Source: Gemmatimonadaceae bacterium (lineage in GTDB: Bacteria; Gemmatimonadota; Gemmatimonadetes; Gemmatimonadales; Gemmatimonadaceae). From it: a stretch of DNA of 64,000 nt. Shown piece by piece: positions 51,254-64,000 of this stretch. The stretch lies in assembly GCA_020851455.1 (NCBI GenBank), contig JADZCT010000033.1:62001-126000 (forward strand), in the 5' to 3' direction. The translations under genes and the position numbers were made by a program. Under the pieces are notes generated by a model, which was not told the origin of the DNA, made no database searches, and was given only the letters and a program-made list of their open reading frames with translations. Positions within the stretch are counted from its first letter, which is position 1. The number at the start of each line of letters is the position of its first letter.

Positions 51254-52024
51254 TTGCGCATCCTCACCCTCCTGCCTGGCGAGTCCCTCGGTGCGCTCCG
51301 CTCTGCGATACGCCTGAGCGATACTGTGGTAGTGCATCCGGACGCGACGTCCCTGCTTGCATCGCTGGAGCGCGGGCGCGTGGACGCGGTAGTCGTGGAT
51401 CCCACCATCGTGAGCGACGCCGCCTGGATCCGGTTGGGGGCAGCGCTGGCAGACCCCGGGCTGCCGGTTCTGGTGTACTCGCCCCTCACGGCCCTGACCG
51501 CCGGGCGCATCGTGGCCGCGTCCGGGACGGGAGTGCACGAAGTGCTCTTGAGAGGGGTGGATGACGACCATGGAGCGATCAGGCGCCGGCTGTACGGACT
51601 TCGCCGGCCGCCGCCGCCGCGGCGCGTGCTGGCTAGCCTCTCGGGCCGTATAGCCATGCTCCCGCCGCCGCTCCAGCGTGGTTCCGTGGCGTTGTTCTGC
51701 GAAGGGCCGATACCGAGGTGGGCGGGTGCGCTGGCGAGTGCCGAGTCGGTGCCGCGCCGTACCGTTGACCGCTGGCTGGGGCGTGTGGGTCTGGCGGCGA
51801 CCGCGACGCTGCTCGACGTGGCGCGGCTGTCGCGCATATGGGTGCCGCTCGTGGAGGATGGATCGCCGCCAGCGAAGGTGGCGCATCGCTGCGGATACAG
51901 TGGCCCCCGCGCCATGGCGGTGCATGCGCAGCGGCTCCTCGGGATATCGCCGGTCCAGTTGGCGGGTGGCGTCTCGGCCGATGAGTTCGTGGACCGGCTC
52001 AGCCGGCGCGCCCAGCGCGGCTGA
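51254..52024 (+). CDS. AraC-like HTH regulator with degenerate receiver-like N-terminus
   Basis: The 256-aa protein has an N-terminal alpha/beta region resembling a receiver (DAVVVDPTIVSDAAW, LPVLVYSP) without a full phospho-acceptor pattern. It ends in a helix-turn-helix like the second half of AraC/XylS domains (GSPPAKVAHRCGYSGPRAMAVHAQRLLGISP). It begins with TTG 51254, the only sensible start; there is no clear ribosome site. It precedes the cytochrome cluster on the same strand by 149 bp, so it could regulate it, but nothing shows this directly. Confidence 0.65.
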   Translation: MRILTLLPGESLGALRSAIRLSDTVVVHPDATSLLASLERGRVDAVVVDPTIVSDAAWIRLGAALADPGLPVLVYSPLTALTAGRIVAASGTGVHEVLLRGVDDDHGAIRRRLYGLRRPPPPRRVLASLSGRIAMLPPPLQRGSVALFCEGPIPRWAGALASAESVPRRTVDRWLGRVGLAATATLLDVARLSRIWVPLVEDGSPPAKVAHRCGYSGPRAMAVHAQRLLGISPVQLAGGVSADEFVDRLSRRAQRG

Positions 52025-52173: not shown

Positions 52174-53667
52174 ATGAGAAGTGTGCGTGCTTATCCATTT
52201 GGGCTTGCAGCTATCGTACTTGCGACGCTCGCGACGGGCTGCACGAGCGAGAAGGTCGTGTACCGGAGCGGAACCAACTTTGCCGCGCCACCCGCTGCCG
52301 GCGCGAACTTCGTCGGCTACTATGACGTCGCCGGCAAGCAGACCGTGTGCGGCTCCTGCCACGTGGACTTCCAGACGCGCTGGTCCAAGACCAAGCACGC
52401 GAGCGCGTGGGCGGATCTTCAGGCCAGCGGTGGCGCCAAGGGATACTGCGAGGCGTGCCATACGGTCAACAACCTCGGCAATTTCGCGGCCGACACCGCG
52501 GTTGGCTTCCGCTCGACGAAGGCCGACCGCTATCACGACGTGCAGTGCGAGAGCTGTCACGGTTCAGGGCTGACGCACGCCAGCGCGCCGAGCTCCGCGA
52601 ACCGGCCGCTCGCCTCGATCGTCTCCGACACGACCGTCACGAGCGGTTGCGGCGGGTGCCACACTGGCTCGCACGATCCATTTGCCTCGGAGTGGCAGAA
52701 GTCTGGTCACTCGAAGACCTGGGCCGCGTCGTATAAGAGCACCGACCCGTATTGCCAAGGGTGCCACACCGGCCAGGGCGCGCTGGCGAACTGGGGCGTG
52801 AAGGGCAACTACGTCGAAAAGAACAACACCAGCAACGGCACCAAGAACATGGTGTCGGCGACGTGTGCGGTGTGCCATGACCCGCACGGCTCGGACAACG
52901 ACCACCAGCTTCGCTTCCCGCTCAACGCCCCGAACCTCGAGGCCAATCTCTGCATCAAGTGCCACCAGCGTCGGGCGACTGCCGGCGACGTTGTCACCGA
53001 GCCGGGCAATACCCGCAACAGCGTCCACTCTCCCGAAGGGCCGACGCTGCTGGGCAACGCCGGCTGGTTCCCGCCGGGAATGTCGGCTGCCGACTCGATC
53101 ATCGGAACGCATGGCACTCCGTCCAGGAACCCCAAACTGTGCGCGACGTGCCACGTGCAGAGCTACTCCGGCACGGACCCAGTCACGAAGCAGCAGGTCT
53201 TCTATACGGGGCATCGCTTCCTCGCAACGCCGTGCGTGGGCGCCAACGGGCTGCCGACTGACGACCAGACCTGCAACGTCACGGCGCAGACATTCCGGAG
53301 CTGCGTCGCTGGCGGGTGCCACGGGACGGAGAGCGCCGCGAAGAGCGCCTTTACCACGGCGCAGGCACGCATAGCTCTCCTTGTGGGGCAGGCGAACACG
53401 CTGGTGACGCAGGCCAAGGCTGGTCCGAAGAAGGCCGAGTGCACCTTCGCGCCGAACGTGACGCACACCACGTGCACCGGGACGCAGCTCAACGTGAGTC
53501 TCGCGAACGCGCCGGGTTCATTCGTCCACAACCCGTTCCTCGTCGAGCGGCTGCTCATCGCGAGCATCAACCAGATGAAGAAGGACTACAACCTCACGGT
53601 GTCGGCCAGCATCAACCTGGCGCCGCAACTCTCGATGCCTGTCAGGATCGCGGGTGGCGCGCGATAG
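52174..53667 (+). CDS. Multiheme cytochrome c lipoprotein (8 CxxCH plus one CX4CH)
   Basis: The 497-aa protein has a lipoprotein signal peptide with the lipidated Cys at ~23 (LATGC), then eight CxxCH haem sites: CGSCH, CEACH, CESCH, CGGCH, CQGCH, CAVCH, CIKCH and CATCH. One CX4CH (CVAGGCH) follows. Extra histidines for distal ligation are frequent. A C-terminal ~130-aa region without haems ends the protein. GAGAGGA lies ~10 nt before ATG 52174. As the first gene of the cluster it could be the outer-membrane or cell-surface electron carrier, a role played by MtrC-type lipoproteins elsewhere, but no homology to MtrC is claimed. Confidence 0.9.
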   Translation: MRSVRAYPFGLAAIVLATLATGCTSEKVVYRSGTNFAAPPAAGANFVGYYDVAGKQTVCGSCHVDFQTRWSKTKHASAWADLQASGGAKGYCEACHTVNNLGNFAADTAVGFRSTKADRYHDVQCESCHGSGLTHASAPSSANRPLASIVSDTTVTSGCGGCHTGSHDPFASEWQKSGHSKTWAASYKSTDPYCQGCHTGQGALANWGVKGNYVEKNNTSNGTKNMVSATCAVCHDPHGSDNDHQLRFPLNAPNLEANLCIKCHQRRATAGDVVTEPGNTRNSVHSPEGPTLLGNAGWFPPGMSAADSIIGTHGTPSRNPKLCATCHVQSYSGTDPVTKQQVFYTGHRFLATPCVGANGLPTDDQTCNVTAQTFRSCVAGGCHGTESAAKSAFTTAQARIALLVGQANTLVTQAKAGPKKAECTFAPNVTHTTCTGTQLNVSLANAPGSFVHNPFLVERLLIASINQMKKDYNLTVSASINLAPQLSMPVRIAGGAR

Positions 53668-53705
53668 ACGCCCGGTAGTTCTTCGCTCATGACGGCGTGC
53701 GTGCT

Positions 53706-53744
53706 GCGGGACCGGGCGGTCGAGTGACGACCACCCGGTCCCGC
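53706..53744 (+). other. Strong nested hairpin between the first two cytochrome genes
   Basis: An 11-bp perfect outer stem (53706-53716 with 53734-53744) encloses a 5-bp inner stem (53718-53722 with 53728-53732) in the 103-bp gap. There is no U tract. It could be a terminator, attenuator or mRNA processing/stability element that sets different levels of the first and later genes. Confidence 0.6.
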
Positions 53745-53770
53745 GTCGCATCCCCCGCTACGTTTCGGTG

Positions 53771-55801
53771 ATGATTCCCGCGCTGCTGTTCCTGCTGCAG
53801 CAGGGGCCTGAGGCCCACTACGGAGGCGGGGCTGCGTCGGGCACGACGGCTGGCGCGGTGTCGGATCCCACCGCGCAGCTCTTCCGGTTTCTGCTCTCGA
53901 CGGTTCCGCAGTGGGTGCAGATCGCCGGCATACTGATTGGCGGGCCTGTAGCCCTCATCGTAGCGTGGCAGGTCTGGAAGAACCGGCGAAATCTGTGGGC
54001 GTGGTTTCTTGGCCGCTCCCGCGGCTACAAGTTCGCGATCGCGGGAACCGGCGGGTTCGTGGCGCTCATAGTGGGATTCGTGGGCGTCTACAACTACAAC
54101 TACGTGATGCATCGGAACGACTTCTGCCAGTCGTGCCACATCATGGACACGCCGTGGAACCGGTTCCAGGTCACGGCGCACAAGGATCTCCAGTGCCACG
54201 CATGCCACCGGCAGCCTCTGTGGGTGAGTTCGAAGGAGCTTTTCTGGTGGGTGTACGAGCGCCGGATGGCCGTGCCCGAGCACGACAAGGTGCCCACGGC
54301 GGTCTGCTCTGAATGCCACATGCGGGGCGAGACAGACTCGTCACGCACCAATGTCATGCGCACGGCGGGGCATGTCGTCCATCTCAAGTCCGACAGCTCG
54401 GCGCTGAAGAACGTACAGTGCGTGACCTGTCATGGCCGTGACTTCCACATGTTCCGGCCGAACAACGCCACCTGCTCGCAGAGCGGGTGCCATACCGATA
54501 CACGCGTGAAGCTTGGCGCGATGTCGAAGGCCGGGTTCCTGCACTGTACGACCTGCCACGGTTTCCGCACTCCGGTGCCGGAGGGCGAGACGGTGGCCGC
54601 GGCGAAGAAGGCGGTGGCGCCGAGGGCGCTCAACTGCTCCGCATGCCACCAGATGGCGGAGAACGTGCTGAAATGGGATCTTGCCAAGGATCCCCACAAG
54701 GGTTCCTGCGGGTCGTGCCACAATCCGCACACGCAGGAACAGCCGCGCGACGCGTACAAGTCGTGCGCGACGGCGCAGTGTCATGCATCGGCCGACACTC
54801 TCACGGCGTTCCACCGCGGGATCGGCACGCACCGCCTCGACGACTGCGGCGCGTGCCACGAGGCGCACAGCTGGAAGGTGAACGGGCGCGATTGCCTCGC
54901 CTGTCACAAGACGATCTACCCGGACCGGCCGCGCGCTGCGCCGCCGGTCGAGGGGGGAGCGGCAGCCGACCGGGTGCGGCACGCGCCGCTGCCGGACGAT
55001 CGTCGGATGCCCATCGGGGAGAGCGGAGCGGCATCGCATCGCGGCCCGTCCCGCGCGAGTGCTGAAGCCGCTGCCGCGGTTTCGATCACGCCCGCCGCGG
55101 TCGTGCGCGCGGCTCGCTCGAGCGTGCCGTCACGCGCCCGGCGCAGCAGGCGCCGTGTCGCGCCTACTGGAGATCGCGCGCTGGCGCTGGTGGCCATGCA
55201 GGGCGGGGCTGGAGGCGCCGGCGCCGGCGACTCCGCCTTCCTGCACTCGCGGCACCGGGGAATCGCCTGCACTTCGTGCCACAGCACGTCATCGGGCACG
55301 CATGGCGGCGTGTCCATCTCGGCGCCTGCCGATTGCCTTGCCTGTCATCATGGCCCGGCACAGAAGGCTGGCTGCACTGTCTGCCATGCGACTGCGGCTC
55401 TTCCGTCACTCTCGAAGGCCGTGACGCTGCGTATTTCGGCACGCGCAACGCCGGTGGAGCGCGCGTTGCCGTTTGCCCATACGCGTCACGCAGCCCTCGA
55501 CTGCGGCCAGTGTCACGCCGCTAACAGCAAGCGCACCGTCACCGCTACGTGCACGTCGTGTCACGGCGACCACCACCAGCTCGATCGCGATTGCGCGGCG
55601 TGCCACCCCACTGCCAGGGCGGGGCACGACCGAACGGCGCACGATGGGTGCGCCGGCTGCCACGCGAAGGCGCAGTTCGCAGCCGCATCATTCACCCGCC
55701 AGGTGTGCCTCGCGTGCCATCAGGAACAGCGTAATCACTACGTGGCGCGTGACTGCGCATCGTGTCATGCCGTCCCATCCCATCCCGGCGGTGCGCGATG
55801 A
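53771..55801 (+). CDS. NapC/NrfH-like membrane cytochrome fused to a multiheme C-terminal region (18 CxxCH, 2 CX4CH)
   Basis: The 676-aa protein has two membrane segments (~45-66 and ~87-113) followed by a NapC/NirT/NrfH-like start (CQSCH at ~119, CHACH, CSECH). In total it has 18 CxxCH sites plus two CX4CH (CSQSGCH, CATAQCH). A haem-free Arg/Ala-rich linker at ~382-499 divides it into an N-half of eleven motifs and a C-half of nine. NapC/NrfH proteins take electrons from menaquinol; the extension would carry them through the periplasm. GTG 53768 also precedes the frame, but ATG 53771 is preferred. The stop overlaps the barrel gene by ATGA. Confidence 0.88.
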   Translation: MIPALLFLLQQGPEAHYGGGAASGTTAGAVSDPTAQLFRFLLSTVPQWVQIAGILIGGPVALIVAWQVWKNRRNLWAWFLGRSRGYKFAIAGTGGFVALIVGFVGVYNYNYVMHRNDFCQSCHIMDTPWNRFQVTAHKDLQCHACHRQPLWVSSKELFWWVYERRMAVPEHDKVPTAVCSECHMRGETDSSRTNVMRTAGHVVHLKSDSSALKNVQCVTCHGRDFHMFRPNNATCSQSGCHTDTRVKLGAMSKAGFLHCTTCHGFRTPVPEGETVAAAKKAVAPRALNCSACHQMAENVLKWDLAKDPHKGSCGSCHNPHTQEQPRDAYKSCATAQCHASADTLTAFHRGIGTHRLDDCGACHEAHSWKVNGRDCLACHKTIYPDRPRAAPPVEGGAAADRVRHAPLPDDRRMPIGESGAASHRGPSRASAEAAAAVSITPAAVVRAARSSVPSRARRSRRRVAPTGDRALALVAMQGGAGGAGAGDSAFLHSRHRGIACTSCHSTSSGTHGGVSISAPADCLACHHGPAQKAGCTVCHATAALPSLSKAVTLRISARATPVERALPFAHTRHAALDCGQCHAANSKRTVTATCTSCHGDHHQLDRDCAACHPTARAGHDRTAHDGCAGCHAKAQFAAASFTRQVCLACHQEQRNHYVARDCASCHAVPSHPGGAR

Positions 55802-57279
55802 CTGCGTCTTCACCGCGCCCCCCACGGCGGGGAGTGGTGCCCGTGATACGGGCGCTGGTCGCTGCGTCCGCGCTTATGGGCGCGGTGAGGGGCGAAGCGC
55901 AGGGCGTTCGCATCTCCGGCGTGACCTCGCTCCAGTATGTGGAGCTGCGGCCATTCGTCACCGACTCCTCGCCGATCGCGGCGGTGCCGGGAACGGGCGA
56001 GTGGCGTGAGTCGCCGGGCGGCGTGCCGGTGCTTTGCTCCGCGGTCAGCGGCTACTGCAGGTTCGAGCGATCGGGGGCGCGCGTTGGCGCATTGCCCATG
56101 CTGCAGGACATAACCGTCGCGGGGTGGGGCTGGGTGCAGGGGCTCAGTTTTCACGCCGACCTGCGGGGCCGCACTCAGGTGGGTGGCGACGGCTTCACGT
56201 GGCCGCGGGCTAACGACCACTTTAACGTCCTGGACGCATACGCGGAACTCGATCGTGGCAACTGGCGCGGCCGACTCGGTCGCCAGTGGGTCACGGGCGG
56301 GCTTGGCGTGTACAACTTCGACGGCGCCGCCGCTTCGCTGAACCGTGACGCATGGTCACTCGAGGGATGGGGTGGGCGCGCGCTGATGGGCGGGCTCAAC
56401 GATGCGTATACGTCGGGGCAGCTCGCGGCGGTCGAGAACCTGCCGCCCGAGGACGGCGGGCTGATCTTTGGCGCGCGCGGGCGCTACCGGCCCGATCCGC
56501 TCACCGCAGCAACGCTCCTCTACCAGCGCGTGCTCGTTGCCGACCGGAGCGGGCTCTACTCGGAGCGCGCCGCGTTCGACGCAACCGCGCGCCGCTTTGG
56601 CGCGCAGGCCGACGTGAACCTCACGTACGACTTTGCCTACGGCGACTGGAACGAGGCGCGCCTCAGGATTGGTACCGGCGCGTACCGGACGTCGGGCGCA
56701 ACGCTCCAGCTTCGCCGTTCACGCCCGTATTTCGACCTGTGGACGATCTGGGGCGCGTTCGCGCCCGTTGGATTCAACGAAGCGAGCGTGACGGCCTTCA
56801 GGAAATTGCAAGGCGCTCCCGTGACCGTTTCCGTACGCGGTGCGTATCGCAAGTACGCAGAAACCGAGGCGGGGTTCGATCTCCGCACCAACGGGTGGCG
56901 CGCCGGCGCCGACGCCACATGGTTGCCGGCGGAGTCGGCCGTGGTGACCGCATCGTACGACGTGGACATCGGCAGCGGCGCCGCTGGCTCGGACGGCCGG
57001 CTCGGCGTGCGATGGATACCCGGGAGTGACGTTTCGGTTGGCGCAGACCTGTCGGTCACGCAGAACATTTATGAGTTCCGCGTGGGCACCGGCCGCATCT
57101 ACGGCGCGGCGCTGAGCGCAGCGGCGCCGGTCGCGCCGGGTACGCGCATTGCCGTTGACGCGGGCTGGTACCGGCATGCGGTGAGCAACGGCGCCGTGGG
57201 GCCGGACTGGAGCCAGCGCCGGATTTCGGCGCGGATCGAATGGGCGATCGGGCGCGATCCCGGGAGTGCGCGGCCGTGA
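55798..57279 (+). CDS. Outer-membrane beta-barrel of the cytochrome cluster
   Basis: The 493-aa protein has a signal peptide (basic N-terminus, hydrophobic ~26-42, ending GEAQG). A long series of alternating amphipathic strands with aromatic girdles follows, ending in a strand RRISARIEWAIG and a short tail. It has no CxxCH site. Its position between two multiheme cytochrome genes, overlapping both by ATGA and GTGA, is that of the porin in porin-cytochrome complexes such as MtrB, which insulates a haem chain across the outer membrane. MtrB homology itself is not evident. Confidence 0.75.
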   Translation: MTASSPRPPRRGVVPVIRALVAASALMGAVRGEAQGVRISGVTSLQYVELRPFVTDSSPIAAVPGTGEWRESPGGVPVLCSAVSGYCRFERSGARVGALPMLQDITVAGWGWVQGLSFHADLRGRTQVGGDGFTWPRANDHFNVLDAYAELDRGNWRGRLGRQWVTGGLGVYNFDGAAASLNRDAWSLEGWGGRALMGGLNDAYTSGQLAAVENLPPEDGGLIFGARGRYRPDPLTAATLLYQRVLVADRSGLYSERAAFDATARRFGAQADVNLTYDFAYGDWNEARLRIGTGAYRTSGATLQLRRSRPYFDLWTIWGAFAPVGFNEASVTAFRKLQGAPVTVSVRGAYRKYAETEAGFDLRTNGWRAGADATWLPAESAVVTASYDVDIGSGAAGSDGRLGVRWIPGSDVSVGADLSVTQNIYEFRVGTGRIYGAALSAAAPVAPGTRIAVDAGWYRHAVSNGAVGPDWSQRRISARIEWAIGRDPGSARP

Positions 57280-58787
57280 CGCCGCGTCGCTGGCCGGCCC
57301 TGCTGATCACCGCGGCCATTGCGGCCGTGGCAGCCGTATTCCCGGCGAACGCAGCGCGGCGTGATGCCAGCGCCTTTCCCCACGCGCGCCACGCCAAGCT
57401 CTTTCCGACGTGCGCCGGATGCCACGCCGGCATCGAGACTGGAGACGCCGCACGCGAGTTTCCCGCTGCCGCCTCGTGTGCGTCATGCCACGACGGCACA
57501 ATCCGGCGCCGCGTGGAGTACTCGGCGCCGGTGCGGCGCGGCGCCGGGTTCCTCACCTTCTCGCATCCCGCGCACGCAGCCAGGACCGCTGACGCGACGT
57601 GCACGTCATGCCACTCGGCGCAAGGCGCGCAGTGGATGGATGTCGCCGCGGCTGCGCCGGAGCGCTGCGCCTCGTGCCACGCGCATGCCGCAGTTCCGCA
57701 CCTGGACGACGCGAACAAGTGCACCACCTGCCACAGGCCGCTCGCCGCGGCCACCGCCCTGACGGAATCGCGGGTGGCGGCGCTCCCCAAGCCACCTTCG
57801 CACGAGCGGGCGGGCTTCGTCTCGACACATGGGGCGACGGCCAACGCTTCGACCGCGACCTGCGCCACCTGCCACGCCCGCGAGAGCTGCCTGCGCTGCC
57901 ACGTTGACGGCACGCTTCCGGCGATTCAGACCCTTGCAGCCGACGCACGCGTAAGGCACCTGGTCGCCGGCAAGGCGCCGGTGTATCCCGTGCCTGCGAC
58001 GCACTCGTCGGCGGATTTCACGCTGGCGCACGGCGCCGCAGCGCGCGCCCCCGCCGCGACCTGCAGCACTTGCCATGCGCGCGCGAGTTGCGAGACGTGC
58101 CATACGGGCGATGGCGCCGCGGGTGTAATCCGTGCCATGCCAGTGCCGGGCAAGGCGGCGGCGCCTGGCGTTCTTCTGAAGCGCGCGCCTCCTCCGGCAA
58201 CGCAGGGCGTCGCGGTGGCCGCGACCGCCAAGCCGTGGACGCCGCAACCCCACCAGGCTGACACCGTACGCACCGTGCGCGTGCATCCACCGGGATTTGG
58301 CACGGCACACGGGCCGACGGCCGCGTCGGGCGCGCTGGGGTGCGAGGGTTGCCATGCGCGCTCATTCTGCTCGACGTGCCACGCCGGCGAGCGTTCGGGC
58401 GGCCGATTCCATCCAGCCGACTTCGTTTCGACGCATGCCCCGAAAGCATACGGCCGCGACACGGACTGCAGCGCGTGCCACAACCCGCAGGCGTTCTGCC
58501 GGTCGTGCCACCTGCAGGCGGGGCTCGCCATGCAGCGGAGCACGCAGCGCAGCGCGACGTTCCACAACGCGCAGCCGCTCTGGCTCATGCAACACGGGCG
58601 GGCCGCGCGCCAGGACTTGCCATCGTGCACAACCTGCCACCAGCAGACCTATTGCATGCAGTGCCATTCCCAGCTTGGCGCGCGCATCAATCCGCACGGC
58701 CCGGGATTCGATGCGTCGAGCATGGCGAGCCGCAACTCACGCATCTGCCTTGCGTGCCACTTCACGAGTCCACGCGGGCCGCAGTGA
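57276..58787 (+). CDS. Periplasmic 16-heme cytochrome c
   Basis: The 503-aa protein has an N-terminal hydrophobic signal (~8-25, ending ANAAR) and sixteen CxxCH motifs, from CAGCH (~48) to CLACH near the end. Several occur in pairs 8-15 residues apart, such as CATCH/CLRCH, CSTCH/CETCH, CEGCH/CSTCH, CSACH/CRSCH and CTTCH/CMQCH, a repeating STHG-x-CxxCHAR-x-CxxCH unit. A Pro/Ala-rich linker lies near residues 290-340. GTG 57276 overlaps the barrel stop. It is a candidate soluble or barrel-inserted electron carrier. Confidence 0.9.
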   Translation: MTPRRWPALLITAAIAAVAAVFPANAARRDASAFPHARHAKLFPTCAGCHAGIETGDAAREFPAAASCASCHDGTIRRRVEYSAPVRRGAGFLTFSHPAHAARTADATCTSCHSAQGAQWMDVAAAAPERCASCHAHAAVPHLDDANKCTTCHRPLAAATALTESRVAALPKPPSHERAGFVSTHGATANASTATCATCHARESCLRCHVDGTLPAIQTLAADARVRHLVAGKAPVYPVPATHSSADFTLAHGAAARAPAATCSTCHARASCETCHTGDGAAGVIRAMPVPGKAAAPGVLLKRAPPPATQGVAVAATAKPWTPQPHQADTVRTVRVHPPGFGTAHGPTAASGALGCEGCHARSFCSTCHAGERSGGRFHPADFVSTHAPKAYGRDTDCSACHNPQAFCRSCHLQAGLAMQRSTQRSATFHNAQPLWLMQHGRAARQDLPSCTTCHQQTYCMQCHSQLGARINPHGPGFDASSMASRNSRICLACHFTSPRGPQ

Positions 58788-58815
58788 TCGCATTTGCCGG
58801 GGAGAGAGCCCCATC

Positions 58816-59259
58816 ATGACAAATAAGACACGATACCTTGCCGCCGTTTGCCTCTTTGTTGCGTCGTTTGCATGCTCGCGCGACCGCCAGGCCGGAGTCC
58901 CGCTCGGCAAGGTGGCGAGCGCGGATGCAGCGCAGCCGCAGGACGCAGCACATTCCCTCATTGGCCCCGCGGCGCTTGCGGCGCTGGATACCGGCAACAC
59001 GCTGTTCCGCAAGCAGGATTACGCCGGCGCTCTCGCGAAGTACCGCACAGCAGGGGATCTTGCTCCTCAGCACTCGGCGCCGATATTCGGCATTTATATG
59101 GTTGCCAAGGCAATGGGCAACAAGGCGCTCGCCGACAGCGCGCTCGCCGCGATTCGCGACCGCAACGGCCCGCTCCCGGAGGCAGGGCACGGAATGTCGG
59201 ATTCGGCGCTCAAGGCCCTTCACGCGCGGAGCAGCGGGCGCGGTACCAACGACACCTGA
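58816..59259 (+). CDS. Small lipoprotein with TPR-like helices
   Basis: The 147-aa protein has a signal peptide and likely lipidated Cys at ~20 (ASFAC). A helical region follows with one clear tetratricopeptide-like unit (NTLFRKQDYAGALAKYRTAGDLAPQH), and there is no haem site. GGGAGAG lies ~9 nt before ATG 58816. It is the last gene of the cytochrome run and may help assemble the complex. Two hairpins follow. Confidence 0.75.
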   Translation: MTNKTRYLAAVCLFVASFACSRDRQAGVPLGKVASADAAQPQDAAHSLIGPAALAALDTGNTLFRKQDYAGALAKYRTAGDLAPQHSAPIFGIYMVAKAMGNKALADSALAAIRDRNGPLPEAGHGMSDSALKALHARSSGRGTNDT

Positions 59260-59323: not shown

Positions 59324-60928
59324 CTAGTGCAGATCCACGGCAGCCGCGGCCCGGCCCTTGCCTGAGCGCCAGAGGAGCATCAGCGGGAGCACCGCGAGCA
59401 GCGCGATTCCGCTCCAGATGTAGATGCGCGAGAACGCCAGGACGCTCGCCTGCACCGTGAGCGCGCGATCGAGCACCGCGGCTGCGCCATGCTTTGCCAG
59501 CGCCGGATTGATTCCCCTCGACGTCAGGCCGCGTGCGTATGCGTCGAGCCGACTGAGCGCATCGGGCGCGGTTACGGTGAGGCGCTCCGCCAGCAACGCC
59601 TTCTTCTCCCGGGTGAATCGCGTGAGCATGGTGGCCATCACCGCGATTCCCAGCGAGCCGCCAAGCTGCCGCGCCAGGTTCAGCATCCCCGTTCCCTGCG
59701 CCAGGTCGCGCGGCCGCAGATTTGCGAGCGTGATGTTGTTGAGCGGGATGAAGATGAATCCCAGGCCTACCCCGCGGAGCACGAGCGGCCAGAAGAGGTC
59801 GCGCTGTCCGCTGTCGTACGTCAGCGAAGCCAACTGCCACATGCACACTCCGAAGAGCACCGAGCCAAGCACGATTACAGGCCGCCCGTCGGTCGCCATT
59901 CGCAGCCGCTTCCCGAGGATCGCCATGGTGACGGCCGACGCGATCGCGCCCGGAAGGATCACGAGCCCCGTCTGGTTGGCGGTAAAGCCGTGGAGCGTCT
60001 GCAGGAAGACGGGAAGGACGAACACGCTTCCGAAAAGCGCAAAGCCCAGCATCGTGCCCATGACCACGCCGGTGGAGAGATGCCGGTCGCGCAGGATATG
60101 GAAGTCAATCACGGGCTCGTCGGTGCGCAGTTCATGGATCACCAGCCATGTTGCCGAAACCGCCGATATCACCGTGAGCGTGACGATGAACGGCGACTCG
60201 AACCAGTCCATCCGTTCGCCGCGCTCGAGCATCCACTGCAGCGAGCCGACAGCCGTCGCGAGGAGGCCGACCCCGAGCCAGTCAACCTTCTTCGCGCGTT
60301 CCTGGAACTCCGAGTCGGTGACGTACATCCATGTCATCGCCGCGGCGACGGCGCCGATCGGCAGGTTGATGTAGAAGATCCAGGGCCAGTTCCAGTTGTC
60401 CACGATCCACCCGCCCAGCGTCGGGCCAATCGTCGGGCCGACCATCACTCCCACGCCGTACATCGCCTGGCCGATGCTGATCTCCTCGGGCGGGAACGAC
60501 TCCCACAGTGTTGCCTGCGCGGTGGAGAGGAGCGCGCCGCCGCCGATGCCCTGGATTACGCGCCAGAAGACGAGCGACGCCAGCTGTGACGATGCCCCGC
60601 AGAACATCGAGGCGATGACGAACAGGATGATGGATCCGGTGAGGTACCTGCGGCGTCCGAAATACGCCGAGAGCCACGGCGACATCGGGATCACGATCAC
60701 ATTGGCGATGATGTAGCCCACGCTCACCCAGGTGATCTCGTCCAGCTCCGCGCCGAGGTTTCCCATCATGTGGGGAACCGCGACGTTCACGATGGACGTG
60801 TCAATGAGCTCCAGCATCGCGGCCATCGTGACGGCAATCGCAATGATGTAGCGGTGCCGGTACCGGTCCACGGCGGCGGCCTCGGGCGCGGCCGAAGACG
60901 CGCCCGCCGGGAAGGCGGAAGTCGTCAT
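59324..60928 (-). CDS. EmrB/QacA-family MFS drug exporter (DHA2)
   Basis: The 534-aa protein has 14 predicted membrane helices, the DHA2 signature LIDTSIVNVAVP in helix 1, loop 2-3 motif WLSAYFGRRRYL, motif C GVGVMVGPTIGPTLGGWIVDNWNWPWIFYINLP, and a cytoplasmic basic tail. It should export drugs or other hydrophobic compounds, using proton gradient. It follows the EmrA-like gene by 7 nt. The substrate is unknown. Confidence 0.92.
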   Translation of the reverse strand: MTTSAFPAGASSAAPEAAAVDRYRHRYIIAIAVTMAAMLELIDTSIVNVAVPHMMGNLGAELDEITWVSVGYIIANVIVIPMSPWLSAYFGRRRYLTGSIILFVIASMFCGASSQLASLVFWRVIQGIGGGALLSTAQATLWESFPPEEISIGQAMYGVGVMVGPTIGPTLGGWIVDNWNWPWIFYINLPIGAVAAAMTWMYVTDSEFQERAKKVDWLGVGLLATAVGSLQWMLERGERMDWFESPFIVTLTVISAVSATWLVIHELRTDEPVIDFHILRDRHLSTGVVMGTMLGFALFGSVFVLPVFLQTLHGFTANQTGLVILPGAIASAVTMAILGKRLRMATDGRPVIVLGSVLFGVCMWQLASLTYDSGQRDLFWPLVLRGVGLGFIFIPLNNITLANLRPRDLAQGTGMLNLARQLGGSLGIAVMATMLTRFTREKKALLAERLTVTAPDALSRLDAYARGLTSRGINPALAKHGAAAVLDRALTVQASVLAFSRIYIWSGIALLAVLPLMLLWRSGKGRAAAAVDLH

Positions 60929-60935
60929 ACTTGGG

Positions 60936-62015
60936 TTACGAAGTCGCCACGTGCACCGTGACGCTCATTCCGGGGCGAAGCGGCCGGTCAGGCCCGCACC
61001 CCCGGGTGACTCGAATGCGTGCGGGCACCCGCTGCACGACCTTCGTGAAGTTGCCCGTCGCGTTGTCCGGCGGGAGCAGCGCAAACTGCGCGCCGGTGGC
61101 TGCGCTCAGGCTCTCGAGCGTCCCCTCGGCGGCGCAGCCGGGGTAGGCGTCCACGTCAATCGCCACCGACTGGCCGACCTTGAGATCCGAGAGCTGCGTT
61201 TCCTTGAAGTTCGCGACTATGTAGTCGCTCGTGTCGGCGACGATCGTGAGGAGCGGCTGCCCTGGCTGGATGAGCTGGCCGATCTCGACTTGCTTGCGGC
61301 TCACCGTTCCCGCGAACGGCGCCGACACGCGCGTATACGAGAGCTGAAGCTTCGCGTTGTCGAGCGCGGCACGCGCGGCGGAGAGCCGGGCCTGTGCGAG
61401 CCGTGTGCCCGCCTCCGCGCTCGTCACTTGTGCTGCAGCGGTAGCCGCCTGGCGCTCGGCTACAGCGAGCGCTGCCGCTGTCTCGTCGTTGGCGGCCTGT
61501 ACCGCGTCGAGTTGCTGCTTCGAGACGATCTGCTTCGCGGCGAGGTCCTTGATGCGGGCCAGGTCAGCCGCCGCCTTCGTGTGCGCGACGCGCGCGGCGT
61601 CAATCTGAGCCGACGCAACGCGGGTCTGGCTCTGTGCCGTCTGCACGGCCGCCTCGGCCTGACCCGCCTGTCCCCTGGCGCCGGCCGCCGCAACGGCCGC
61701 TGCGTAATCGGCCTCGGCCTGCGCGAGGCGCACGACGTATTCAGAACTGTCAATCAGCACGAGCGGTGCGCCGCCGGAAACGACCTGGTTGTCGGCGACC
61801 TCGATCTTCCTTACGTACCCGCCGACCTTGGCGAGAACCGGGACGATGGTACCGTCAACCTGGGCGTTGTCCGTGCTCTCGTGGTTGCGGTTGTACATGA
61901 TGACCTTCGCGCCCCAACCGAGCGCGACCAGCGCGCCGATGGCGAGGAGCGGGAGCGCGATCTTACGCCCCGTTGACGGTTCTTCGGTGGCAGTGGGCCT
62001 AACGGTGGTAGCCAT
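60936..62015 (-). CDS. EmrA/HlyD-type membrane fusion protein
   Basis: The 359-aa protein has one N-terminal membrane helix (~18-36), a biotinyl-lipoyl-like domain (TDNAQVDGTIVPVLAKVGGYVRKIEV), a long Ala/Gln-rich coiled-coil hairpin (~80-215) and a barrel domain beginning YTRVSAPFAGTVSRKQVEIGQLIQPGQ. It links the EmrB-like exporter to the TolC-like channel. It lies 16 nt after the tolC-like gene. Confidence 0.92.
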   Translation of the reverse strand: MATTVRPTATEEPSTGRKIALPLLAIGALVALGWGAKVIMYNRNHESTDNAQVDGTIVPVLAKVGGYVRKIEVADNQVVSGGAPLVLIDSSEYVVRLAQAEADYAAAVAAAGARGQAGQAEAAVQTAQSQTRVASAQIDAARVAHTKAAADLARIKDLAAKQIVSKQQLDAVQAANDETAAALAVAERQAATAAAQVTSAEAGTRLAQARLSAARAALDNAKLQLSYTRVSAPFAGTVSRKQVEIGQLIQPGQPLLTIVADTSDYIVANFKETQLSDLKVGQSVAIDVDAYPGCAAEGTLESLSAATGAQFALLPPDNATGNFTKVVQRVPARIRVTRGCGPDRPLRPGMSVTVHVATS

Positions 62016-62031
62016 ATGGGGAGCCGGTGGG

Positions 62032-63369
62032 TCAGGGAAGGTCGGTAATGGTGCCCTGGGCGCGAGCGAGCGATACGCGCGCGAGCTGCAGCGACGCGCG
62101 GGCGTCTATCGCCTGCGTGCGCGCGGCGTTGAGGGCGAGTTGTGCGGTGATCACGTCGGCGTTGCCGGTGACTCCGGCACTGAACCTGTCGCGCGCCTGC
62201 GAGAGTTCCTGCCCGGCCAGGGAGACGCGTTCTTCGGAGGCAACGAGCAACTCGCTTGCCGCCTTGAGGTCGAGCAGCGCGGAACTGACGTCGGCGGCAA
62301 CCTGCTCTTCGAGGTCGCGCCGCTGGACGTCCGCCTGCCGCACGGCCAGCCGGGCTTCGTCGTTCCTGCTCGTCCGGCGGAAGCCGTCGAAGACCGGAAC
62401 GGAGAGTTGCAACCCCCACGTGTAAGTGGAGAGCATGTGCTGCGTGGCCTTGCCGGTGACGCCCTGGTCAACGTAGAGCGAGAGGGCAGGGAGCGCGTCG
62501 GCGCGCGCGGCCTGCAGCGAACGTTCGGCGGCGAGCGCTTCAGCGTTTGCGGCGGCCAGGTCGGCGCGCGAGGCGGAGGCGGTACGCATGGCCGCGGTGG
62601 CGTCCGGAAGTTCCGTGACGGCGGCCGCGGGCAGTGAATCGGCCAGCGCGATCGTGGTGCCGAGCGGGAGTCCCGCGGCGCGGGCCAGGCTGATCTGGTT
62701 GCGGTCGCGCTCGGCGCGCGCGGCGATCAACTGGCTGTGGGTCACGGAGAGCTGTGCCTGCGCGCGCGTGACGTCGAGCGCCACGCCGACTCCGGCGTCG
62801 AGTTGCGCCCGCGCGATGCCGAGGAGGTCAGCTGCGAGCGATGAATCGGCCGAGAGCGCTGCGAGGAGCGCCTCGGCGTGCGCTGCGCGCACGTAAGCCG
62901 CCGCGGCGGCAGCCGCTGCCTGTTGCGCGACGCTGTTTGCCTGTTGCGCGCTCGCGTCGTGCGATGCTTCCGCTGCCCGCAGCCGCGCAAAGGCGGACGG
63001 GTTCAGGAGCGACTGCTGCAGCGAACCGCGCAGATCCCATGTCTTGACTGGCCCAAGCACCTGGCCGTTCGGGTCGAACATTGACTTGCCCGTCGCCGGG
63101 TCGGCGAACGAAATGCCGAAGCTCGCGCTGTTGAATGTGCGCTCGCCGTCGCTCGCGACTGCGCCAACGTTGGGGAGGAAACTCGCTTTCTGCTGACGGA
63201 CGCGTTGGGCGGCCTGGTCGCGCCGGAGGCGCGCTGCTTCGGGCCCCGCGGTTCGTTCGACGGCCATTCGCGCCGCGCCGCCCATGGTGAGCGTAACGGG
63301 CGTTTGTGCCACCGCGGCGGTAGCGAGCAGCGCCGTGGCCGTGATCGAGAGGATGAGTGTTCGCGTCAT
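62032..63369 (-). CDS. TolC-family outer-membrane efflux channel
   Basis: The 445-aa protein has a signal peptide (ending TAAVAQ) and two structural repeats of long helices and short strands with TolC-like motifs, including GVALDVTRAQAQLSVTHSQL and AGVTGNADVITAQLALNAARTQ. It forms the trimeric OM duct of the pump. ATGA overlaps the tetR stop, so regulator and channel are co-translated. Confidence 0.9.
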   Translation of the reverse strand: MTRTLILSITATALLATAAVAQTPVTLTMGGAARMAVERTAGPEAARLRRDQAAQRVRQQKASFLPNVGAVASDGERTFNSASFGISFADPATGKSMFDPNGQVLGPVKTWDLRGSLQQSLLNPSAFARLRAAEASHDASAQQANSVAQQAAAAAAAAYVRAAHAEALLAALSADSSLAADLLGIARAQLDAGVGVALDVTRAQAQLSVTHSQLIAARAERDRNQISLARAAGLPLGTTIALADSLPAAAVTELPDATAAMRTASASRADLAAANAEALAAERSLQAARADALPALSLYVDQGVTGKATQHMLSTYTWGLQLSVPVFDGFRRTSRNDEARLAVRQADVQRRDLEEQVAADVSSALLDLKAASELLVASEERVSLAGQELSQARDRFSAGVTGNADVITAQLALNAARTQAIDARASLQLARVSLARAQGTITDLP

Positions 63370-64000
63370 TGATTGGCGTCCGGCTCCGGGCGCAGGGCAT
63401 GGAAGACGAAGTCAACTATTGCGTCGGCGTGGGTGGCGCGGCTGATCTCGACGCCGGAACTCGTGGGCAGCGGGGTATGCGACCAAAGCGTGGTGGTGAG
63501 GATGATCGCCTTGATGATCGAGAGTGCCTCGGCCGGATCCAGTCTCCTGAACTCGCCTATATCCATGCCGCGTCGAAGAATTCCGCCAAGTACCGAGTTG
63601 CCCGCGCTGATCACCTCGTCGTAATAGAAGGCGGCGAGGTCCCGGTGTTTGTGGAGTTCAGTCATCACGAGGCGGATCCATCCCGCCGCGCCCGGGTGCG
63701 CGTGGTGCGTGAGCTGTAAGCGGATGTAGCGCTCGAGCTGTTCGCGCGGCGTGCCCGTGTCGAGGGCGCGTTCGACTTCGCGCATCCGGGGCACCAGCAG
63801 TTGGCGGACGACTTCGCGGAACAGGTCTTCCTTGCTCTGAAAGTAGAGGTAGATGGTGCCCTTCGAGACGCCCGCGCGCGCCGCGATGTCTTCGAGCTTG
63901 GCGCCTGCGATCCCGTTCTCTCCGAACGCTTCGATGGCGGCGACGAGGATCTGTTGCGGGCGTTCTTCCGGGAGCCGCCGCCACTTGGGGTCGGCGGTGG
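63366..64000 (-). CDS. TetR-family regulator (5' end outside window)
   Basis: The frame continues from the stop at 63366 through the right edge (211 codons). The N-terminal helix-turn-helix reads AIEAFGENGIAGAKLEDIAARAG then VSKGTIYLYFQSKEDLFREVV, the TetR signature. The C-terminal ~140 residues are the ligand-binding domain. It is the first seen gene of the efflux operon and probably represses it. The start and promoter lie outside the window. Confidence 0.92.
   Translation of the reverse strand, partial: TADPKWRRLPEERPQQILVAAIEAFGENGIAGAKLEDIAARAGVSKGTIYLYFQSKEDLFREVVRQLLVPRMREVERALDTGTPREQLERYIRLQLTHHAHPGAAGWIRLVMTELHKHRDLAAFYYDEVISAGNSVLGGILRRGMDIGEFRRLDPAEALSIIKAIILTTTLWSHTPLPTSSGVEISRATHADAIVDFVFHALRPEPDANQ

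Follow-up and report, generated by a model that had tools for sequence, protein, structure and literature searches.

A five-gene cluster from Gemmatimonadota with the architecture of a porin–cytochrome conduit

We analysed a 64 kb stretch of DNA (the window) from a Gemmatimonadaceae bacterium and describe here a cluster of five open reading frames (ORFs), g1 to g5, located at positions 52174-59259 of the plus strand. In the model of the porin–cytochrome complex (Shi 2014; Richardson model) the gene of an outer-membrane barrel is clustered with genes of exported multihaem cytochromes; this arrangement was found here, and by architecture the cluster is a porin–cytochrome conduit. It probably encodes a trans-envelope conduit that exports respiratory electrons, from quinol to g2, then to g4 inside the g3 barrel, then to g1 and to the outside of the cell. 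The nature of g1, g2 and g3 is supported by sequence and predicted fold, that of g4 by sequence. On the features tested, the cluster lies outside the MtrCAB/MtoAB/PioAB, ImcH and PCC3/PCC4 groups.

Gene content and haem motifs of the cluster

The original prediction had described a five-gene cluster on one strand with 45 haem-binding motifs, and both the genes and the total were recovered: all five ORFs were found, and we counted 42 CXXCH and 3 CX4CH motifs (9, 20, 0, 16 and 0 in g1 to g5). The first gene, g1 (52174..53667, plus strand as for all five), encodes a lipoprotein of 497 amino acids that we propose to be a surface terminal oxidoreductase of the outer membrane. It had been described as an 8-haem protein; since it contains 8 CXXCH motifs and 1 CX4CH motif (CVAGGCH, residue 377) it is a nonahaem protein, and the earlier figures of 8 for g1 and 45 in total arose because two counting rules were mixed. 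The g2 gene (53768..55801, GTG start, 677 amino acids) encodes a 20-haem inner-membrane-anchored cytochrome with 18 CXXCH and 2 CX4CH motifs. The product of g3 (55798..57279, 493 amino acids) has a signal peptide and no haem motif and is a predicted outer-membrane β-barrel. An exported cytochrome with 16 CXXCH motifs, as originally stated, is encoded by g4 (57276..58787, GTG start, 503 amino acids), and a small TPR-like lipoprotein, which again agrees with the first description, by the accessory gene g5 (58816..59259, 147 amino acids), whose product has a lipobox and a weak TPR_2 match in Pfam (E 0.0013). The middle three genes had been reported as joined by ATGA/GTGA overlaps, and we observed an ATGA overlap at g2/g3 and a GTGA overlap at g3/g4; g4 and g5 are separated by 28 bp.

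A chance origin of the motifs was excluded, because at most two further CXXCH motifs per frame were detected outside g1-g5 when all six frames of the 64 kb window were scanned. In alignments of 26 to 57 homologues per cytochrome the haem motifs were invariant or nearly so. Searches with Pfam and NCBIfam gave generic or sub-threshold cytochrome matches for g1, g2 and g4, the N-terminus of g2 matching NrfH.

Relay, barrel, wire and surface protein

Two N-terminal transmembrane (TM) helices were identified in g2 by hydropathy. They are followed by an NrfH/NapC-like head with 11 haems (residues ~116-385), a Pro/Ala-rich linker of very variable length (residues ~386-486) and a class-III-like domain with 9 haems (residues 487-677, from position 55226). 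The NapC/NrfH-like character proposed for this protein was supported by alignment with NrfH (2j7a_C, E 5.7e-11) over the TM helix, the FCxSCHxM haem 1 and haem 2; the NapC/NrfH feature of a TM anchor followed by a CXXCHxM haem 1 is thus present in the head. Met126 of this motif is conserved in at least 90% of the homologues, and the score for the Pfam family NNT (22.3 bits) fell just below the cut-off of 24.1. The C-terminal half gave profile matches to HmcA/class III high-molecular-weight cytochromes and nine-haem cytochromes, and the g2 profile reached MtrA (6r2q_A) weakly. Relatives of g2 keep the total of 20 motifs. The C-terminal half was found alone at the same place in several loci (L092-L094, L130 and others) and the N-terminal half alone in L118; the finding of the same parts both fused and split suggests that the two halves work together. 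We rejected g2 as an ImcH protein. ImcH has three TM helices, an adjoining CX3CH motif and six CX2CH motifs (PMC6295460), whereas g2 has two TM helices, CXXCH as its first motif and 20 motifs in all. In the pathway that we infer, the membrane-anchored NrfH-like head would oxidise quinol at the outer face of the inner membrane, and the 11-haem part and the flexibly linked 9-haem domain would carry the electrons across the periplasm; g2 would then replace separate carriers of the CymA/ImcH and PpcA/STC types.

The outer-membrane barrel of the original prediction was reproduced by AlphaFold2, which from an alignment of 73 sequences gave a confident model of g3 as a closed barrel of 22 long strands (residues 36-50 and 96-485; mean predicted local distance difference test score (pLDDT) 86.7, predicted template modelling score (pTM) 0.80). 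Cys80 and Cys87 are invariant. The g3 protein of the window had no Pfam match at E<=1 and likewise none in NCBIfam. The model matches TonB-dependent receptor barrels, which are among its closest folds (Z up to 19.2, ~350 residues aligned), with a fold search that leaves other barrel families possible; MtrB (6r2q_B) was among the Foldseek matches (E 4e-7). Membership of the MtrB/PioB family (PF11854) was rejected, with a match in 1 of 55 homologues (E 0.024), none for the window barrel, and 22 strands in the model. By standard barrel geometry the backbone radius is ~20 Å for 22 strands versus ~23.5 Å for 26, and for that reason the modelled lumen should be narrower than that of MtrB but should still admit a file of haems.

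Since the closest folds of g3 are transport barrels, the locus might have a non-respiratory function, with the barrel moving a solute into or out of the cell and the cytochromes working independently of it in the periplasm. We regard this as highly improbable: TonB receptors with the same number of strands hold a plug domain inside, whereas the g3 model has none, and the g3 gene is nearly always tied to a gene for a 9- to 18-haem protein, often by translational overlap.

The mature g4 protein has 476 residues for its 16 haems, i.e. 29.8 residues per haem. None of the 16 motifs varies among the 42-57 homologues, in which at least 14 other His residues are conserved too; the profile matched sixteen-haem cytochromes of the Hmc type. 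An assignment to the MtrA/DmsE-type decahaem wires was rejected, as the g4 profile did not find MtrA (6r2q_A) at E<=1e-3 and the protein has 16 haems. In the exporting conduit electrons would pass from g2 to g4, which would form a densely packed 16-haem wire in the g3 lumen; the size of the barrel and its likeness to TonB receptors make such threading possible.

The lipobox cysteine of g1, Cys23, is invariant in 40 homologues and the +2 residue is mostly not Asp. AlphaFold2 predicted a fold with a C-terminal three-helix bundle (pLDDT 75.8, pTM 0.78), and when this model was compared with known structures by VIA-align the first match was OcwA (6i5b; Z 16.4, root-mean-square deviation 3.4, 324 residues, 24% identity), followed by NrfA, OmhA, octahaem nitrite reductases, HAO and MccA. 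Foldseek gave weak matches, also to nitrite reductases (best E 0.015), and the match with OcwA comes from VIA-align and from a profile search of PDB sequences, in which OmhA (6qvm, 8.5e-17) and OcwA (6i5b, 2.8e-15) were found. The haem motifs of g1 are collinear with those of OmhA and OcwA, and the proteins have a C-terminal HN..L...LL helix motif in common. Its nine haem motifs and the predicted NrfA-type fold with the C-terminal three-helix bundle support g1 as a nonahaem protein of the OcwA/NrfA superfamily. The g1 profile also reached MtrA (6r2q_A) weakly. The OmcA/MtrC family was rejected for g1, which in the model folds as OcwA; TIGR03507 matched 3 of 40 members of the g1 family (best E 3.6e-6), the window protein not being among them and having no match at E<=1e-3.

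OcwA of Thermincola potens is a nonahaem, NrfA-related terminal reductase of the cell surface (PMC6703420), and published accounts assign both OcwA and OmhA a role in extracellular electron transfer as reductases at the cell surface (PMC6703420, PMC7829351). In the proposed conduit the last transfer would be from g4 to g1, an OcwA-type nonahaem lipoprotein on the cell surface, which could pass electrons to an extracellular acceptor, e.g. a Fe(III)/Mn(IV) mineral, humics or a shuttle. Alternatively, g1 could act mainly on a soluble substrate (nitrite, hydroxylamine, a sulfite-like compound or a metalloid oxyanion), and the conduit would then supply this outer-membrane enzyme in place of minerals. 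This is suggested by the NrfA/HAO/MccA-superfamily fold and by OcwA, a slow reducer of nitrite that also reacts with hydroxylamine (PMC6703420). However, whereas haems 2 and 5 of OcwA are open and five-coordinate and NrfA has a CXXCK motif, the CXXCK motif is absent from g1, and its nine conserved candidate distal His residues, whose assignment to individual haems requires coordinates, would leave no evident open haem; moreover, a reductase of soluble ions needs no wire through the outer membrane. We therefore consider this role improbable.

Co-conservation, host genome and direction of electron flow

A homologue of the g3 barrel was detected in 60 of 200 Gemmatimonadota genomes, representing 44 of 92 genera, with a patchy occurrence even inside the source genus (5 of 8 genomes). 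Most of the 60 loci that we fetched keep the order g1-g2-g3-g4 and vary little in their motif totals (9, 20, 0 and 16). A scan of named genomes with one peptide pattern yielded 80 loci, partly overlapping the set of 60; nearly all are titled Gemmatimonadetes, Gemmatimonadota or an order within, which supports Gemmatimonadota as the lineage of the cluster, and many of the metagenome-assembled genomes came from palsa, fen, permafrost soil, sediment and groundwater. Of the 75 loci of this named set in which the position of g4 was testable, 71 have it immediately after g3, and in 42 of these the two genes overlap by 4 nt; g1 is upstream in 37 of 49 testable loci and g5 downstream of g4 in 17 of 55. 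Strong matches to g1 and g3 occur together in 55 of the 200 genomes (58 and 60 singly; Fisher p 2e-39). Pairwise protein distances of g1-g4 correlate with r 0.74-0.90 (shuffles at most 0.33). Synteny in other Gemmatimonadota had been proposed as a check on the cluster, and the gene order does recur in dozens of genomes, with the genes co-conserved. The most constant partner of the barrel is the 16-haem g4, and g1-g4 appear to be four clustered, jointly inherited genes with g5 as an accessory. Outside the phylum, the one-pattern scan found a single contig, in a Candidatus Kuenenia stuttgartiensis bin (L169, CALQGY020000021.1), with a cluster of the Gemmatimonadota type; because the g1 encoded there shares 73% identity with a homologue from Gemmatimonadota, this is most likely a mis-binned contig, and we rejected it as evidence of wider spread.

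These data also bear on which cytochrome would enter the barrel. If the C-terminal 9-haem domain of g2 threaded g3 instead of g4, one polypeptide would reach from quinol to the outer membrane, leaving g4 as an extra periplasmic or external cytochrome. The g2 gene does precede g3 with ATGA coupling, and the 9-haem domain is retained where the NrfH-like head has been lost. We nevertheless judge this arrangement unlikely, since g3 and g4 stay paired in loci with no g2-like gene beside the barrel, the co-divergence is highest for g3-g4 (r 0.904, versus 0.821 for g3-g2), and the C-terminal half of g2 resembles soluble class III cytochromes.

In five loci from other Gemmatimonadota (L061, L063, L080, L085 and L087) the g3-g4 pair was observed beside a different inner-membrane module, comprising proteins with 19 to 22 haems, some of which have TM parts resembling cytochrome b561, and NapC-like 11-haem proteins; a cytochrome b/b6 gene lies beside the pair in L061. 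These loci possibly represent one conduit with exchangeable quinone ends.

In the source genome g2 is the sole NapC/NrfH-family match, and a scan for paired CXXCH motifs found, besides the cluster, an ACIII-type pentahaem protein, an 8-haem TPR protein and one isolated site; the electron route therefore looks self-contained. The 8-haem protein, a c554-type cytochrome fused to TPR repeats (L176:5182-7791, G000:C84), was the only other large multihaem protein found. CcmC and CcmF are encoded on another contig (C94); in relatives of the same family g1 is immediately preceded by ccm genes (L032, 245-4713; L034, 12276-15626; L038, 14811-17862), L032 having a full CcmC-CcmE-CcmF-CcmG-CcmH set there. 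The genome has haem-copper oxidases and molybdopterin enzymes, including a NarG-like gene; no RuBisCO was found in it, and NrfA nitrite reduction was rejected for it, with no match to PF02335. This combination suggests a facultative heterotroph, in which electrons are more likely to be exported than to be taken up for lithoautotrophic growth.

The same conduit could also run in reverse, as in Mto/Pio systems, with g1 taking electrons from Fe(II), Mn(II) or some other reduced donor outside the cell and passing them through g4-g3 and g2 to the quinone pool. Haem wires are reversible and CymA-type proteins serve both directions (PMC6295460), and the oxidases of the host are available as electron sinks. 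On the other hand, RuBisCO is lacking, g1 groups with the terminal reductases of the OcwA/OmhA/NrfA superfamily, and Mto/Pio clusters have no extracellular multihaem cytochrome partner (PMC5566968), which makes import an unlikely direction for this cluster. Three points weigh against the exporting conduit as we have drawn it. In some relatives of the same genus only the 9-haem half of g2 is present, so that the relay need not be fused; the haem-copper oxidases, together with NarGH-like genes, indicate that the conduit is not the only respiration of the host; and the lipobox of g1 is no more than compatible with the surface location that we propose for the protein. The quinol-to-outside route of the original prediction stood as regards the barrel, the NrfH-like head and the co-conservation of the genes, while the direction of flow and the assembly into one complex are what we infer from them.

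Upstream of g1 by 150 bp, on the same strand, lies an AraC-type (HTH_18) regulator gene (51254..52024, starting at 51254 with TTG or at 51326 with GTG), with a Pfam match of 28.6 bits (E 1.8e-6) under the 33.6 cut-off; judged by its position, it is a possible regulator of g1-g5. The cluster DNA contained no convincing sigma-70 promoter and no convincing terminator. Between g1 and g2 we detected a strong intercistronic RNA hairpin without a U-tract (53706..53744, plus strand), the gap region folding with -55.5 kcal/mol (z -3.5). Counterpart stems of differing sequence occur at this gap in L032, L033, L095 and L096 (z -3.0 to -6.7), and the hairpin is absent in L109, where the gap is 26 nt. It might set the expression of g1 apart from that of g2-g4 and allow more g1 to be made. 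Downstream of the cluster, a convergent EmrB/EmrA-like efflux pair and further genes on the minus strand (59324-63998) look unrelated. Elsewhere in the genome, a molybdopterin oxidoreductase gene, perhaps for a formate dehydrogenase, was noted (G000:C105:31146-32420) with one in-frame TGA that possibly encodes selenocysteine.

Comparison with known systems

Although common in soils, permafrost and sediments, the Gemmatimonadota have been little studied. In the open-licence literature, where such a result is not proof of novelty, we found no description of an extracellular-electron-transfer conduit in this phylum, which is mentioned only in passing in work on such conduits; Zhong and Shi listed two ImcH homologues and one CbcL homologue in Gemmatimonadetes and described no conduit there. 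The cluster may represent a phylum-specific design, in which a 20-haem anchored protein spans the periplasm, a 16-haem wire lies in a 22-strand barrel and an NrfA-superfamily protein acts as the surface reductase; we put this forward as a plausible reading that falls short of being probable. If it is true, about 30% of the sampled Gemmatimonadota species carry a compact conduit that searches with Mtr-, Pcc- and OmcS-based marker sets would probably overlook. Since the cluster is small and is found again in many genera, the question is testable.

In general architecture the cluster is like Geobacter Pcc (OmbB-OmaB-OmcB), in which a porin, a periplasmic multihaem cytochrome and an outer lipoprotein multihaem cytochrome are clustered; the libraries searched yielded no match to a model of these three proteins. 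It shares with PCC3/PCC4 of Fe(II) oxidisers large multihaem cytochromes beside a barrel (PMC5566968). However, PCC3/PCC4 clusters encode a conserved five-TM inner-membrane protein with HX13H motifs (PMC5566968) that has no equivalent among g1-g5, and they differ further from our cluster, with its haem numbers nearly fixed at 9/20/16, in belonging to a different phylum. Shewanella MtrCAB, Sideroxydans MtoAB and Rhodopseudomonas PioAB likewise combine a barrel with an exported multihaem wire and, in the case of Mtr, a surface cytochrome. That none of the five proteins looks like a simple Mtr homologue had been noted originally, and the features of MtrB/PioB, MtrA and MtrC were indeed not found: the predicted g3 barrel has 22 strands in place of their 26 and no MtrB_PioB Pfam match, g4 was not matched to MtrA, the surface partner is of the OcwA type and not MtrC/OmcA, and the operon here also encodes the inner-membrane relay. 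With NrfH/NapC/CymA and ImcH, g2 has in common a TM-anchored head with a CXXCHxM haem 1, but it differs from all of them in its two TM helices, 20 motifs and fused 9-haem domain, and from ImcH in lacking the third TM helix and CX3CH.

The closest counterparts of g1 are OcwA (6i5b) and OmhA of Carboxydothermus (6qvm), which have the C-terminal three-helix bundle and a proposed cell-surface role, OcwA also having nine haems in the same order. These proteins come from Gram-positive bacteria, whereas g1 is a diderm lipoprotein encoded in a porin operon, and the Carboxydothermus proteins were stated not to be associated with porin–cytochrome complexes (PMC7829351). In a published phylogeny OcwA is the sole monoderm protein in a subclade of Gram-negative nonahaem proteins, and such Gram-negative relatives were noted there and not placed in a pathway (PMC7829351). 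The cluster links the OcwA-type reductases of Gram-positive iron reducers with porin–cytochrome complexes and, if our reading is true, its wire of ~45 haems in one gene cluster would be the diderm counterpart of the Gram-positive OcwA system.

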